Origin: Bacteriovorax stolpii
GTDB lineage: Bacteria > Bdellovibrionota > Bacteriovoracia > Bacteriovoracales > Bacteriovoracaceae
Assembly: GCA_945905815.1 (NCBI GenBank)
Contig: CAMDQH010000004.1
Span: 1-64,000 of the forward strand
Length of the DNA: 64,000 bases
Reading direction: 5' to 3'
In this document: piece after piece, positions 33,162 through 39,569 of the stretch
Layout of the letters: the number at the start of each line of letters is the position of its first letter
Numbering within the stretch: position 1 is the first letter of the stretch
The notes under the pieces: model-generated
What the model was told of the DNA's origin: nothing
Seen by the model: the letters and a program-made list of their open reading frames with translations, nothing else
The model's database searches: none
Program-made: the position numbers and the translations under genes

Positions 33162-33180
33162 TGACAATTCCGTGACAATT
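33162..33180 (+). promoter_or_regulatory. 11-bp-spaced direct repeat upstream of hemA
   Basis: TGACAATT occurs at 33162-33169 and again at 33173-33180, start-to-start distance 11 bp (one helical turn), on one face of the DNA. This matches how OmpR/PhoB-type regulators bind. A -10-like TATTCT (33198-33203) follows and would start RNA near the hemA ATG at 33210, placing the repeats at about -48 to -30. The operon encodes an OmpR-type regulator. Confidence 0.45.
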
Positions 33181-33209
33181 TACACATGATGATTAGCTAT
33201 TCTTAACCC

Positions 33210-34145
33210 ATGTTAAACGGACTGAACCTATGGAACTTCAGCACGGGCACTCACCCCGATATCGAGCTGAATGGAAAAGCCTTTATTCTTAAAACATGCC
33301 AGCGCTCTTTAGTGCTCAGTCTTAGTAATTTCCCATTTAAGTATAAAGACCTGCCATCTCACGAATTACAAACCGCCGATTCTGCCTATATCTACCTTTT
33401 GGAAACAATTTGTGGCCTTAAAAGTAAACTTATCGGCGAAAATGAAATTGTTGGCCAGTTTAAAGAAGCCTACAAAATCTACAGTCAGTCCGATCTCAAG
33501 GACACCAAGCTACTTTTAATCCTTGAAAAGCTTTTCAAGGACGCGAAGGACATTCGTACTCAGTATTTGATTGGTATCTCCCAAAAAACTTACGCATCTT
33601 TGACCCGACGCCACCTGATCCAGAAGGCCAAAGCCGAGCATGTCGTTGTGGTTGGATCTGGTTCTTTGGCAGAAGATTTAATTAATCAATTTAAAAAGAA
33701 AGCGCAGGTCTCTATTTGCGCACGTAATAACTCACGAACTCTTGAACTTGCACGCCTGCACAATCTGGCCATTATTCCTTGGGAAGAGCGTCATACAATA
33801 GTAAATCGGCCTTACATTGCCAACACCGTTGGAACGGACAATATTTTATTTGATGAAAATTTCTTCGCTGAATGGAAAAATAATAACAGCTCTCGCAAAT
33901 TCGTAGACCTAGGCAGCCCATCAGTTATCAGCACCATACTTTCAATTAACGAAGGTGTTGTGCGTCTAGAAGATATCTTTAATGAGGGAGCAATCGTTGA
34001 AGGCCAGAAGCAACAACAAATAGAACTTGCCCGTTTGGCAATGCTAGAAGTTGCCCAAAGACGTAAGTCGCTTTTCGCAGAAAAACTCAAGAAAAACGCA
34101 GCTGGAATTGCTCCTCAAAGCACGCAGAACATGAGATACATCTAA
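33210..34145 (+). CDS. hemA: Glutamyl-tRNA reductase, shortened form
   Basis: First committed step of C5 tetrapyrrole synthesis: reduces Glu-tRNA(Glu) to glutamate-1-semialdehyde. The catalytic cysteine motif is TCQR (usually TCNR) at about residue 29-32. GENEIVGQFKEAY is the family signature, and an NADPH-binding domain starts HVVVVGSGSLAEDL. At 311 residues it is far shorter than typical HemA (about 420): about 20 residues before the Cys motif and most of the C-terminal dimerisation domain are missing. No Shine-Dalgarno is visible. hemCD follows after four bases. Context makes activity likely. Confidence 0.88.
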   Translation: MLNGLNLWNFSTGTHPDIELNGKAFILKTCQRSLVLSLSNFPFKYKDLPSHELQTADSAYIYLLETICGLKSKLIGENEIVGQFKEAYKIYSQSDLKDTKLLLILEKLFKDAKDIRTQYLIGISQKTYASLTRRHLIQKAKAEHVVVVGSGSLAEDLINQFKKKAQVSICARNNSRTLELARLHNLAIIPWEERHTIVNRPYIANTVGTDNILFDENFFAEWKNNNSSRKFVDLGSPSVISTILSINEGVVRLEDIFNEGAIVEGQKQQQIELARLAMLEVAQRRKSLFAEKLKKNAAGIAPQSTQNMRYI

Positions 34146-34149
34146 GTCT

Positions 34150-35694
34150 ATGACCACCTATAAAATTGGTACTCGTGGATCACTCTTGGCAGTGACACAA
34201 TCTACATTAATGAAGAATGAATTAGAGAGAATTTCTGGTGAGAAATTTGAACTGGTGCTTATCCAAACTCAAGGTGATCAGATTACTGATAAACCTTTGT
34301 GGCAACTTGAGGGTAAGGATTTCTTTACTAAAGAATTGGATGAGGCCCTATTAAATGAGTCAGTAGACTTCGTTATTCACTCTTATAAAGATTTGGGCTC
34401 AGAAAGACCTGAGGGTATCAAACTTGCCGCAGTGACTGAAAGACGATTCGCTCACGATATTTTCTTGATGCCAAAATCAATTATTAAAGAACTTAAGAAC
34501 TGGAATGGAGAATTAGTCGTAGGAACTTCTTCTCCCAGACGAATTGCCAATTTATCCACTTCACTAAAAAAATATCTGCCTAACTTAAAAAATCAAGACA
34601 CGAACATTCGTTGTGAAACCCTTCGGGGTAACGTGAATACGAGAATTAAAAAATTAAAAGATGGTCAATATCACGGGATAACTCTTGCTTTTGCCGGTCT
34701 TGAACGTTTGGCTCAAGGTGAAAAATCCCGCGCTGAACTTGAAGCATTACTTGATGGGCTCAATTATTTAGTTCTGCCCCAGAGTATATTTCCCTCAGCT
34801 GCTGCCCAAGGAGCTTTGGCCTTAGAGATGAAAGCTGATCGTCAGGATAATGGAAAACTTGCTCATATTCTCGCGAAGCTGAATCATGAAACGACAATTG
34901 AAGAAGTAAAAAAAGAACGTGAAGCCTTTAAAGCATTTGGTGGTGGATGCCATCTTGCAGTGGGAATTCATGTTAAAAAAGTCGGGAATACATTTCTCCA
35001 TATCCATTCAGGTGAAGTAGATGGAAAAAGAATTGATGTAAAGTGGCTTGAAGGAACGGCCAAGCATCAAGTTACTGCTGGTAAAAAATATTTTGTTGGT
35101 CTACCTCACGGTGAGCGAACTGAAGTCGTATATGATGAGTTATTGGCAAAGACTCCAGAAATCAAAGAAATTGACCTGAAAAATAAACATGTCTTTATCA
35201 CTTCTCGTTATACACTACCTACTCTCGGCGCCTCTCTAGGAACTGGGCCTGAAGGTGTTTGGGCCGCAGGCAGTAAGACCGCACAACTTTTAGCAGATGA
35301 AGGCATTTGGCTAAATGGAACAAGTGATTCACTTGGAACTGCTGATCTTGTTGCGTTCAAGCATTCCGAAGTTTTAAAAATCTTTCATCCCTCAATCCAA
35401 AAACCGTGGACCGTACTTACTCATCACGAAGGTACAACAGATCTTGGTTCAGTCGTAGGTTGCTACACTCGAGAGCCTCAAAAGGTAAGTGAATCTTTTA
35501 CCAATGATATGAACAAAGTCGGTGCTTGTCTTTGGACCAGCTTTCAACAATACGAAATATATCTTAAACAATTTCCTTGTCTCAAAGATGCTCACCATTT
35601 CTGTGGTTTGGGTAAAACTTGGCAGGAATTTCAAAAGGCAGGGGTAAATATTAATCCCTTGGCAAGCATGCAGGAATTTTATGAACTCAAATGA
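34150..35694 (+). CDS. hemC: Porphobilinogen deaminase fused to uroporphyrinogen-III synthase-like domain
   Basis: Residues 1-310 are HemC: IGTRGSLLAVTQS, TQGDQI, FTKELDEALL, DFVIHSYKDL (active-site region), GTSSPRRIANL, LRGNVNTRIKKL and the dipyrromethane-cofactor cysteine in AFGGGCHLAVGIH. It polymerises porphobilinogen to hydroxymethylbilane. HemC alone is about 310 residues; here 514. The extra 200 residues resemble HemD: a first sub-domain (KHVFITSRYTLPTLG), then ACLWTSFQQYEIYLKQF, HHFCGLGKTWQEFQKAGV and NINPLASMQEFYEL at the end, matching the HemD 'TS..' and 'G..T...l...G' pattern. The last 14 bases overlap hemL. Confidence 0.92.
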   Translation: MTTYKIGTRGSLLAVTQSTLMKNELERISGEKFELVLIQTQGDQITDKPLWQLEGKDFFTKELDEALLNESVDFVIHSYKDLGSERPEGIKLAAVTERRFAHDIFLMPKSIIKELKNWNGELVVGTSSPRRIANLSTSLKKYLPNLKNQDTNIRCETLRGNVNTRIKKLKDGQYHGITLAFAGLERLAQGEKSRAELEALLDGLNYLVLPQSIFPSAAAQGALALEMKADRQDNGKLAHILAKLNHETTIEEVKKEREAFKAFGGGCHLAVGIHVKKVGNTFLHIHSGEVDGKRIDVKWLEGTAKHQVTAGKKYFVGLPHGERTEVVYDELLAKTPEIKEIDLKNKHVFITSRYTLPTLGASLGTGPEGVWAAGSKTAQLLADEGIWLNGTSDSLGTADLVAFKHSEVLKIFHPSIQKPWTVLTHHEGTTDLGSVVGCYTREPQKVSESFTNDMNKVGACLWTSFQQYEIYLKQFPCLKDAHHFCGLGKTWQEFQKAGVNINPLASMQEFYELK

Positions 35695-36940
35695 ACTTTT
35701 TGAAAAATCTCTTCGTCTAGTACCTGGTGGAGTTCACTCCCCTGTCAGATCATTTAAAGGTCTACACTGCACACCACGATTTATTAATCATGGTAAAGGT
35801 GCCTACATCACGGATGAAGATGGAAAAAACTATATCGACTTTTGTATGAGCTTTGGGCCTCTGATTCTTGGCCACCAAGATCAAGACGTTAAAGAGGCCA
35901 TAATCAAAGCTCTTGATAACGGCTGGACCTTTGGTGCTTGTGAAAAATATTCACTTGAGCTGGCTGAATTTATCATTGGAAAAATTTCTTTCATTGACCA
36001 GATTCGCTTCACGAGTTCAGGAACTGAAGCTGTGATGACAGCAATCCGTCTTGCACGTGGAGTGACAGGAAGGGCCAAAATTATTAAATTCAATGGCTGC
36101 TATCATGGACACATGGATGCCATGCTAATAAAAGCCGGCTCAGGGCTTGCTGGAACTTCAGAAGCATCCTCCAAGGGTATTACTGAACAACAGGCGAATG
36201 ATACTTTGGTTTGCGAGCTTGCCGATCTAAATGAAGTCAAAAACGTTTTCGAAAGATATCCAAACGATATTGCAGCGATTTTCATTGAGCCACTTCCTGC
36301 CAACAATGGCCTATTAATTCAGGATCAAGCTTTCCTTCAGGGACTTCGAGATCTTTGTACTAAGTATGGAGCACTTCTGGTTTTTGATGAAGTGATCTCA
36401 GGCTTTCGTATGGGGTTTGATGGAATGGCCGGAATTACTAAAATTATTCCAGACATAGTAACTTATGGAAAAATTATTGGCGGAGGAATGCCAGTAGGAG
36501 CAATTGCCGGCAAAAAAGACGTGATGCAATTCTTGGCACCTCTTGGCCCAGTTTATCAGGCAGGTACACTTTCCGGAAATCCTGTTGCGATGGTGGCAGG
36601 ATTAACTTCACTCAAAAAACTTACGCCTGACGCCTATGTAAAACTTGAACACAACACGAAGGCCGTAGTTAACACGATGGCGGAGTGGATGAAAGCAAAA
36701 GGTTTTGAAGATTATCAAACGATTCAATACGGATCACTTTTCTACCCTATTTCAACTCACGATAAATTAAACAACATCACTCAACTCCCAAAAAACATGA
36801 ACGAAAGATTCTTCAGTCTTTTCAAAACGATGTTAGACAAAGGTATCTACCTTGCTCCAAATGCGTATGAAGTTGCTTTTGGTAGTCTTTCTCACGATGC
36901 AAAAGTTATTGAGGATTTGAAAAATAGGTTATGGAACTAA
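35681..36940 (+). CDS. hemL: Glutamate-1-semialdehyde 2,1-aminomutase
   Basis: PLP enzyme that converts glutamate-1-semialdehyde to 5-aminolevulinate, using the HemA product. Landmarks: LVPGGVHSPVRSFKG at the N-terminus, FTSSGTEAVMTAIRLARGVTG, the Asp in LLVFDEVISGFR, and the PLP lysine in VTYGKIIGGGMPVGAIAG. 419 residues, normal length. AGGA precedes the ATG, which lies inside the hemCD gene. Its end overlaps the histidine kinase gene by 10 bases. Confidence 0.97.
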   Translation: MNSNELFEKSLRLVPGGVHSPVRSFKGLHCTPRFINHGKGAYITDEDGKNYIDFCMSFGPLILGHQDQDVKEAIIKALDNGWTFGACEKYSLELAEFIIGKISFIDQIRFTSSGTEAVMTAIRLARGVTGRAKIIKFNGCYHGHMDAMLIKAGSGLAGTSEASSKGITEQQANDTLVCELADLNEVKNVFERYPNDIAAIFIEPLPANNGLLIQDQAFLQGLRDLCTKYGALLVFDEVISGFRMGFDGMAGITKIIPDIVTYGKIIGGGMPVGAIAGKKDVMQFLAPLGPVYQAGTLSGNPVAMVAGLTSLKKLTPDAYVKLEHNTKAVVNTMAEWMKAKGFEDYQTIQYGSLFYPISTHDKLNNITQLPKNMNERFFSLFKTMLDKGIYLAPNAYEVAFGSLSHDAKVIEDLKNRLWN

Positions 36941-37854
36941 ATCGTACACGACGCTGGTTTTACGGACTCACAATGTTGTGGGTGTTTATGCTACTGGGGC
37001 TTGGCTCTTGGTGGCTCTATCTTGTTTTCAAATTACACACAACTTTAAGTGAGTTAAATCTTCCACAGCTTGGATCTCCAAGTCGATTTCTAAATATGAT
37101 GAAGTGGGAAGGCTCGTTCTTTTTTATATTTCTCATTCTATTGGGTGCCTCACTTCTTTATATGTATTTCAGAGATATGCGCAAGACCAAAGCCATGCAG
37201 GCCTTCTTTTCTTCACTGTCCCACGAACACAAGACACCATTAGCAAGTATGCGTCTTCAAGTTGAAGTTATTAAAGACCTAATCGAAGATGAAAGTCATT
37301 CCCACGAGCAGCTGTCGAATCTGGCCGCACGCTTAGTCGAAGACACGACCAAACTTGAAAGTGAATTAGATAAAAGCCTTCAACTATCACGAATCGAGCA
37401 AGATGGAACGCTAACACTGGTACCCATTAGTCTTGAGCGATATTTGAAAAGGCACCAACAAAAACTCTCATCGAAGCTTCTATTAGACTTACAAATCTCT
37501 GAAGAAGCCAAAGCCATTTTAGCCGATGAGCTTGCACTTAACGTGATATTTAGAAACTTATTTGAAAATACTGTTCGCCATAATCCTGAATCAAAAAAAA
37601 TCATTATATCCGCTACAAAGAATGGTTCATATGTTGAATTGATTTACAATGACGGTGGAAAAAAGTTTTTAGGCAATTCAGGAAAATTGGGAGAACTTTT
37701 TTATAAGTTTAATTCGACTAAAGGCACCGGAATCGGTCTTTATCTTATCAAAAACCTCATGCGTAAAATGAACGGTCAATTTGAAATCATGAATAATGAT
37801 AATTTGATGATGAAACTCTCTTTTTCAGCGTCTAAGGGAGAAGTTGATGTCTAA
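36931..37854 (+). CDS. Sensor histidine kinase inside the heme operon
   Basis: 307 residues. Two membrane helices (about 9-33 and 61-80) enclose an extracytoplasmic loop of only about 27 residues, the layout of intramembrane-sensing kinases. The H-box is SSLSHEHKTPLASM with phospho-acceptor His98. The N-box is IFRNLFENTVRHN and the G-box KGTGIGLYLIKNLM. The family usually has a hydrophobic residue (ELxTPL) where this has His100. It overlaps hemL (10 bases) and is followed by a response regulator whose ATG lies inside its last codons. The signal is unknown; a heme intermediate or membrane state is inference. Confidence 0.93.
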   Translation: MELNRTRRWFYGLTMLWVFMLLGLGSWWLYLVFKLHTTLSELNLPQLGSPSRFLNMMKWEGSFFFIFLILLGASLLYMYFRDMRKTKAMQAFFSSLSHEHKTPLASMRLQVEVIKDLIEDESHSHEQLSNLAARLVEDTTKLESELDKSLQLSRIEQDGTLTLVPISLERYLKRHQQKLSSKLLLDLQISEEAKAILADELALNVIFRNLFENTVRHNPESKKIIISATKNGSYVELIYNDGGKKFLGNSGKLGELFYKFNSTKGTGIGLYLIKNLMRKMNGQFEIMNNDNLMMKLSFSASKGEVDV

Positions 37855-38545
37855 TTTACCTCTACTCTTAGTTGAAGATGAGCCGAATCTGGGTCAAACC
37901 TTGAGAGACTACCTTCTTGCCAAAAAATATCAAGTTGAACTGGCAATAACTTGTGTTGAGGCAAGAGAAAAATTTGAAAAAATAAAGCCGGCAATAGTAA
38001 TCCTTGATATAGGCCTGCCTGATGGCTCTGGTATTGATCTCGCACGAGAATTCAGATCTCAGAGAAAAGACTGTGTTCTACTTTTTTGCACGGCCTTAAA
38101 TGATCCATATCTTCGCGTAGAAGGACTTGAGCTGGGAGCAGAAGATTACATTACAAAACCCTTCGAGCTGAAAGAAATGACTATACGACTAGACCGGATA
38201 TTAAAATCACGTCAGTTTACGTTGCAGAATCCTGAGGAAATGCGGTTTGGGAAAATTATTTTTTGGCCTAAGCGCTTTGAGATTCAAGATAGCGGGGGGA
38301 ACATTACTTCTCTGAGTCAGAAAGAGTGCGCTATCGTTGAGCTTCTATTAGAACGTAAAAATGAAGTGGTTTCTCGCGACGAGATGATTGAGAACATTTG
38401 GGGGCAGAATAGTTTTCCTACCAACCGCACTATTGATAATTACATTGTAAAGCTCCGTAAATGGGCCGACTCTGACTCTGCTGGATCATTAAAGATCACT
38501 TCTGTCAGAGGTATTGGATATAAGCTAGAACTCAAAGGAAACTAA
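37847..38545 (+). CDS. OmpR-family response regulator inside the heme operon
   Basis: 232 residues. Receiver domain with the acidic pair (VEDEPN), phospho-acceptor Asp in VILDIGLPDGSG (about residue 54) and Lys in EDYITKPFE. A C-terminal winged helix follows: LSQKECAIVELLLERKNEVVSRDEMIENIWG, then TNRTIDNYIVKLRKW and ITSVRGIGYKLE. GGGAG lies seven bases before the ATG at 37847; a TTG at 37844 is less likely. hemE starts two bases after the stop. Its probable target is the direct repeat before hemA. Confidence 0.95.
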   Translation: MSNLPLLLVEDEPNLGQTLRDYLLAKKYQVELAITCVEAREKFEKIKPAIVILDIGLPDGSGIDLAREFRSQRKDCVLLFCTALNDPYLRVEGLELGAEDYITKPFELKEMTIRLDRILKSRQFTLQNPEEMRFGKIIFWPKRFEIQDSGGNITSLSQKECAIVELLLERKNEVVSRDEMIENIWGQNSFPTNRTIDNYIVKLRKWADSDSAGSLKITSVRGIGYKLELKGN

Positions 38546-38546
38546 G

Positions 38547-39569
38547 ATGGATATTTTTGAAAACCGTAAAGACTTTCTACCAGTATGGTTCATGCGCCAG
38601 GCCGGTCGCTACCATTCACATTATCAGGCGATTAAGAAAAACTCTGATTTTATGACTATGTGTAAAAATCCAGAACTTGCATGTGAAGTAACCTTAGGGC
38701 CAATCCAAGATTTCGGGTTTAATGCCGCCATTTTATTTTCGGATTTACTATTTCCCTTAGAACAATTGGGTATGGGGCTTTCTTATCAGTCTGGCCCACC
38801 TGTTCTGGAATGGCATCTTCAAAGTCCGACAGATATTTCAAAACTCAAAATAAAATCACCAGGAAAAGAGTTTTATAAATTTCAAGGCGATGCCTGTAAA
38901 TTAATTAGAGAACGACTACCTCAAGATGTGACACTCATTGGATTTGTTGGCGCTCCATTTACGCTCTATACCTATGCAGTGGAAGGCTCACATGCAGGAA
39001 ACTTAGTTTCTGCCAAACAAGGGCTATACGATGGACGTTTTGAAGCCTTCACAAATATGTTAATGCCGGAGTTGTTAGAAGAAATGTTAATGCAAGCAAA
39101 TAACGGTGCACAAGCAATTGCTTTATTTGATACAGCTGCTGGTGAGTTATGTGTATCTGATTATAAAGAACTAATCGTTCCAAAAATCACTGCTCTACTT
39201 AAGGCCTTCAAAGCAAAATCTCCTAAGACCAAAATCATCTATTATTCTAAGCATACTCAAGCAGGCCATGTGAAATGCCTCGATCTTTCATGCATAGACG
39301 TTATTGGTGTAGACTGGCGATGTGATCTCGTAGAAATTCAAAAGCTTCTTCCACCGCAAGTTTTTATTCAAGGGAATTTGGATCCGGCCTGGTTGCATTT
39401 GCCAACTGACCTGATGGAGAAGAAGGCGAAAGCATACTACGCTGACTTACGTGAGCGTGGACTGGACTTTAAACGTTGGATAGCGGGACTTGGCCATGGG
39501 GTATTGATTCAGACTCCAGAAGAGAATGTGAGACGATTGGTGAAGATTATTCAGGGACAGAAGCTTTAG
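38547..39569 (+). CDS. hemE: Uroporphyrinogen decarboxylase
   Basis: Converts uroporphyrinogen III to coproporphyrinogen III. Signature PVWFMRQAGRYHSHYQ at the N-terminus, FSDLLFPLEQLGMGL with the catalytic Asp, GFVGAPFTLYTYAVEG, and VIGVDWRCDL with IQGNLDPAW near the C-terminus. 340 residues, normal length. It lies two bases after the response regulator, the last gene of the operon. Its stop overlaps the convergent cpaF stop by four bases. Confidence 0.97.
   Translation: MDIFENRKDFLPVWFMRQAGRYHSHYQAIKKNSDFMTMCKNPELACEVTLGPIQDFGFNAAILFSDLLFPLEQLGMGLSYQSGPPVLEWHLQSPTDISKLKIKSPGKEFYKFQGDACKLIRERLPQDVTLIGFVGAPFTLYTYAVEGSHAGNLVSAKQGLYDGRFEAFTNMLMPELLEEMLMQANNGAQAIALFDTAAGELCVSDYKELIVPKITALLKAFKAKSPKTKIIYYSKHTQAGHVKCLDLSCIDVIGVDWRCDLVEIQKLLPPQVFIQGNLDPAWLHLPTDLMEKKAKAYYADLRERGLDFKRWIAGLGHGVLIQTPEENVRRLVKIIQGQKL

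Follow-up and report, generated by a model that had tools for sequence, protein, structure and literature searches.

A HemKR-type two-component system predicted to control the heme biosynthesis operon in Bdellovibrionota

Introduction

The best-studied relative of the system described here is HemKR of Leptospira, formerly known as Hklep/Rrlep. Louvel and colleagues reported in 2008 that in L. interrogans the two genes are flanked by hemE and hemL, and that its deletion in L. biflexa renders growth dependent on hemin or ALA (PMC2266917). According to the same study, H98 and D53 are required and the periplasmic loop is dispensable; a linkage to heme genes in Bdellovibrio bacteriovorus was also noted, with data not shown (PMC2266917). 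Imelio and colleagues have since demonstrated that ALA turns HemK into a phosphatase via T102, and that HemR binds a hem-box with the sequence TGACA-N6-TGACA, activates hemA, represses hmuO and also controls exbB1/D1 (PMC11426443). In Leptospira the signal sensed by HemK may be ALA itself or a later product.

Here we analyse a 64,000-nucleotide stretch of DNA from Bacteriovorax stolpii (contig CAMDQH010000004.1), referred to as the window, in which a histidine kinase and a response regulator are embedded in a heme biosynthesis operon. An earlier note on this DNA had called such a coupling unusual. It has a precedent: in Leptospira interrogans, HemKR is likewise found between hemL and hemE, and the Bdellovibrio linkage was mentioned as early as 2008 (PMC2266917). 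The system itself has thus already been described, and its spread across the phylum, the geometry of its promoter and the tryptophan pair discussed below were not found in published work, mostly the open literature. A search of mostly open-access papers found none that combines Bdellovibrio and HemKR.

The hem operon of Bacteriovorax stolpii

The window carries a compact hem operon (Table 1). The placement of a HisKA kinase and an OmpR-type regulator between hemL and hemE, as proposed in the earlier note, agrees with coordinates, gene order and Pfam families alike. Two of the three gene junctions that it described are as stated, namely the 10-base overlap between hemL (end 36940) and the kinase (ATG 36931), and the regulator ATG (37847) within the end of the kinase gene (37854), an overlap of eight bases. 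The two-base gap between regulator and hemE needs correction, as the regulator stop codon ends at 38545 and the gap is a single base (38546).

Table 1. Coordinates of the hem operon and of its predicted control elements in the window
Feature	Coordinates	Strand	Assignment or position
Gene order hemA-hemC(D)-hemL-kinase-regulator-hemE		+	tight operon
hem-box TGACAATTCCGTGACA, predicted operator for the HemR-like regulator	33162..33177	+	exact match to Leptospira TGACA-N6-TGACA
TATTCT, predicted -10 element	33198..33203	+	20 nt after hem-box, 6 nt before hemA ATG
hemA, short glutamyl-tRNA reductase	33210..34145	+	Pfam GlutR_N + Shikimate_DH
hemC, porphobilinogen deaminase	34150..35694	+	Pfam/NCBIfam hemC
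hemL	35681..36940	+	Pfam Aminotran_3; NCBIfam PRK00062 above cut-off
HemK-like sensor histidine kinase	36931..37854	+	Pfam HisKA + HATPase_c; L. interrogans HemK match
HemR-like OmpR/PhoB-type response regulator	37847..38545, ATG start	+	Pfam Response_reg + Trans_reg_C; L. interrogans HemR match
hemE	38547..39569	+	Pfam URO-D

HemA is short (311 aa) and has no Pfam match to the GluTR dimerisation domain; elsewhere, its length is 309 aa in family f6 and 289 aa in L. interrogans, but 406 aa in f3. A C-terminal extension of HemC occupies the place of hemD, comparable to the bifunctional protein of Leptospira, and a homologue at another locus (L065) is annotated as bifunctional. The genes hemB and hemH sit on other contigs of the genome, outside the operon. 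A single 803-aa ORF (L192:58-2469, minus strand, contig C32 of genome G000) joins ferrochelatase HemH to a Major Facilitator Superfamily transporter, with Pfam Ferrochelatase at residues 13-323 and MFS_1 at 375-762. The hemH frame of a second genome (G015) encodes 811 aa, and the same fusion there is judged by frame length.

Relationship to HemKR of Leptospira

With L. interrogans HemR as query, the window regulator is the best match in its genome (161 bits versus 91 for the next), and the two proteins are reciprocal best hits. HemK likewise retrieves the window kinase first (147 versus 45 bits) in an alignment that spans the transmembrane region, with 34-35% identity. When the window regulator was compared with plasmid records, the best match among at least 5000 matching records was again Leptospira interrogans HemR, with hemE as the next gene. 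The L. interrogans record lists, in one direction, a short HemA (annotated as hypothetical), hemC/D, hemB, hemL, kinase, regulator, hemE, hemN and hemG. The window pair is very probably the Bdellovibrionota HemKR system, an orthologue of Leptospira HemKR that activates the hem operon. The role in tuning tetrapyrrole flux suggested earlier is very likely right, given a HemKR orthologue and a predicted HemR operator before hemA.

Conservation across the Bdellovibrionota

A kinase profile search of 291 genomes of the phylum listed about 150 matches, one per genome, all with E-values of about 3e-69 or better. In many other genomes the best kinase reached only around 1e-25 to 1e-40, scores that we read as general kinase background, and many genomes of the phylum, including families f2, f4, f9 and others, seem to be without the system.

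Conservation of the hemL-kinase-regulator-hemE order in related genomes, a check put forward in the earlier note, left its claim standing. hemE was sought in 80 kinase-positive genomes, and in 76 of them it follows the kinase on the same strand at a distance of 701-836 bp, which leaves room for one regulator. The four exceptions comprise two kinases at a contig end, one genome without a hemE hit and one real separation. In the latter (G177, locus L162) hemE and the pair are on different contigs; a hemA-like gene adjoins the pair on the opposite strand, and there is no clear hem-box. In all 19 Bacteriovoracaceae-type loci in named genomes the kinase directly follows hemL, and every locus of this type whose contig reaches far enough continues with the regulator and then hemE. 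The same-genus genomes without a kinase match (G007, G013, G014 and G017) are fragmentary, and hemE starts 3 (G007) and 463 bases (G014) from the contig start. Across 42 loci from 12 families the order is, with few exceptions, hemA-hemC-(hemB)-hemL-kinase-regulator-hemE-(hemN), where the bracketed genes vary by family. Recurring across the phylum as it does, this arrangement is far beyond chance.

Operator and promoter

The predicted operator in the window is an 11-bp direct repeat beginning 48 bp upstream of the hemA ATG. No other exact copy of the motif occurs in the window, and the genome as a whole has only one more, which lies within an ORF. A chance occurrence was considered and rejected, since the other exact genomic copy is inside an ORF and the exact boxes found in loci of about 13 kb are located before the hem operon. 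All 22 loci first examined (Bacteriovoracaceae, families f3, f6 and f8, and Leptospira) have an exact hem-box before hemA. Of 42 further loci, 28 carry an exact box ahead of the hem operon, always on the hem strand; the remaining 14 include 12 with a weaker box, one whose contig stops short of hemA (L159) and L162, where the pair is apart from the operon. The weaker box typically reads YTACA-N6-TGACA, with a TGACG first half in one f12 locus, and the degenerate first half-site (YTACA) is found in several other genera of f1. In loci L034, L168-L171 and L183 (families f6 and f17), hemB is divergent from hemA, and the single hem-box between them could serve both.

A TAnnnT element begins 19-21 nt past the second half-site in 39 of 43 loci, compared with about 9% of shuffles (offsets 18-20), and mostly ends 6-7 nt ahead of the first ATG or GTG in these 43 loci. 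At this spacing the repeat is placed so that an activator of the OmpR/PhoB type would take over from the -35 element, and the position of the -10 element implies a transcription start at or beside the hemA start codon; the hemA mRNA is thus probably leaderless. A scan with a generic promoter model gave 16 matches against 15 expected and was uninformative.

Signal perception

The phospho-acceptor assigned in the earlier note, His98 of the kinase, proved correct and sits in the motif SHEHKT together with Thr102; the receiver aspartate of the regulator is Asp54. These catalytic residues of HemKR (His98, Thr102 and Asp54) are all present and invariant among the compared sequences. Two hydrophobic stretches, at about 12-31 and 61-79, flank a loop of about 30 residues. 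The 'intramembrane-sensing layout' proposed earlier fits only in part: the protein is a HisKA kinase with a short loop, and at most a candidate for the BceS/LiaS class. BceS is the weakest among the matches listed for the kinase against solved structures, and the loop of about 30 residues is family-variable.

The Trp27-Trp28 pair at the end of TM1 is as invariant as the catalytic histidine, and Trp27 and Trp28 are the only near-invariant residues outside the catalytic part, apart from Phe92 where HisKA begins. The distance between Trp28 and the beginning of TM2 ranges from 15 to 47 residues, and the loop differs between families. The near-invariant tryptophans, the variable spacing and the published dispensability of the Leptospira loop suggest that sensing resides in the part of the kinase embedded in the membrane, and we infer that the signal is sensed by the transmembrane region around Trp27-Trp28.

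Regulon and alternative functions

The regulon was judged through pattern searches only. A Pfam search found no heme oxygenase in the window genome and none in 11 of 12 genomes overall; the window genome has no second intergenic exact hem-box and no visible hmuO or exbBD arm. Wider genome scans found exact hem-boxes elsewhere to be only somewhat commoner than a reversed control pattern, and because this excess is slight, a larger regulon is not claimed. The missing heme oxygenase match limits the claim about the regulon, not about orthology, as hmuO is a target and not a part of the two-component system. With no heme oxygenase found and few excess boxes elsewhere, the system is probably a feedback loop on a single operon.

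Position in an operon is by itself no proof of function, and the pair could be a bystander, carried along in the hem operon but in control of something else such as envelope stress or phosphate. Generic family models do put it nearest PhoR/CreC (kinase) and RprY/CreB/PhoB (regulator), albeit with all scores far below the curated cut-offs. Such a role is nevertheless extremely unlikely, given that the pair holds its position across families, that an operator precedes hemA and that the Leptospira orthologue controls hem genes. Alternatively, the main role of the pair might be to repress the hem operon or, like HssRS, to sense heme toxicity, rather than to activate synthesis; Leptospira HemR, after all, represses hmuO besides activating hemA (PMC11426443). 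The distance of 19-21 nt from the end of the box to the -10 element, however, fits PhoB-style activation, the operon has no efflux pump, and no heme oxygenase was found in the window genome or in 11 of 12 genomes, all of which make this second alternative very unlikely.

Proposed mechanism and origin

Activation of the hem operon by a HemKR orthologue, the preferred reading, can be put as follows. The membrane kinase HemK would phosphorylate HemR, a phosphotransfer extrapolated from Leptospira experiments, and phosphorylated HemR would bind the 11-bp direct repeat before hemA, which substitutes for a -35 element. HemR would then recruit RNA polymerase to the -10 element just upstream of the hemA start, in line with hemA activation in Leptospira, so that the whole operon, including the kinase and regulator genes themselves, would be switched on. 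Once porphyrin precursors are abundant, HemK would become a phosphatase through Thr102 and the operon would be shut down; that ALA or a product of ALA triggers this shutdown is again predicted from the Leptospira experiments. Gene order, orthology, conserved catalytic residues and the conserved operator and promoter geometry are the parts directly supported here.

A HemE tree and a four-protein tree both place Leptospira (one sequence) nested among Bdellovibrionota, near families f6, f11 and f28, and an AU test on HemE did not reject the alternative (p 0.124). The trees suggest that the Leptospira heme operon may have been transferred from Bdellovibrionota. A more far-reaching scenario, which we offer tentatively as a possibility, holds that HemKR and its operon arose in Bdellovibrionota and that an ancestor of Leptospira acquired genes and operator as a unit. 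In this scenario the invariant Trp-Trp at the end of TM1 would read the signal in the membrane, with no need for the variable loop.

Perspectives and comparison with known systems

A heme switch studied by experiment in a single spirochete genus is thereby extended to much of a phylum to which the predatory bacteria belong, and its operator is recognisable from sequence. Trp27 and Trp28 are now named candidate sensing residues, and the Leptospira heme operon may itself derive from Bdellovibrionota. With apparently one operon and no heme oxygenase found, the system offers a simple setting for finding the HemK signal.

Among known regulators tied to heme or tetrapyrroles, HrtR and PpsR are one-component regulators without a kinase. 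HssRS shares with the window pair the architecture of a two-component system that responds to heme. It controls a heme efflux pump and not biosynthesis, whereas the window operon has no efflux pump. Compared with Leptospira HemKR, the window operon lacks hemB and the last steps, and no heme oxygenase was found. The likeness to HemKR of Leptospira biflexa and L. interrogans comprises the HisKA kinase with two transmembrane segments and His98/Thr102, the OmpR-type regulator, the TGACA-N6-TGACA box at hemA, the short HemA and the fused hemC/hemD; the hemL-hemE linkage, absent in L. biflexa, is common to the window, its relatives and L. interrogans.
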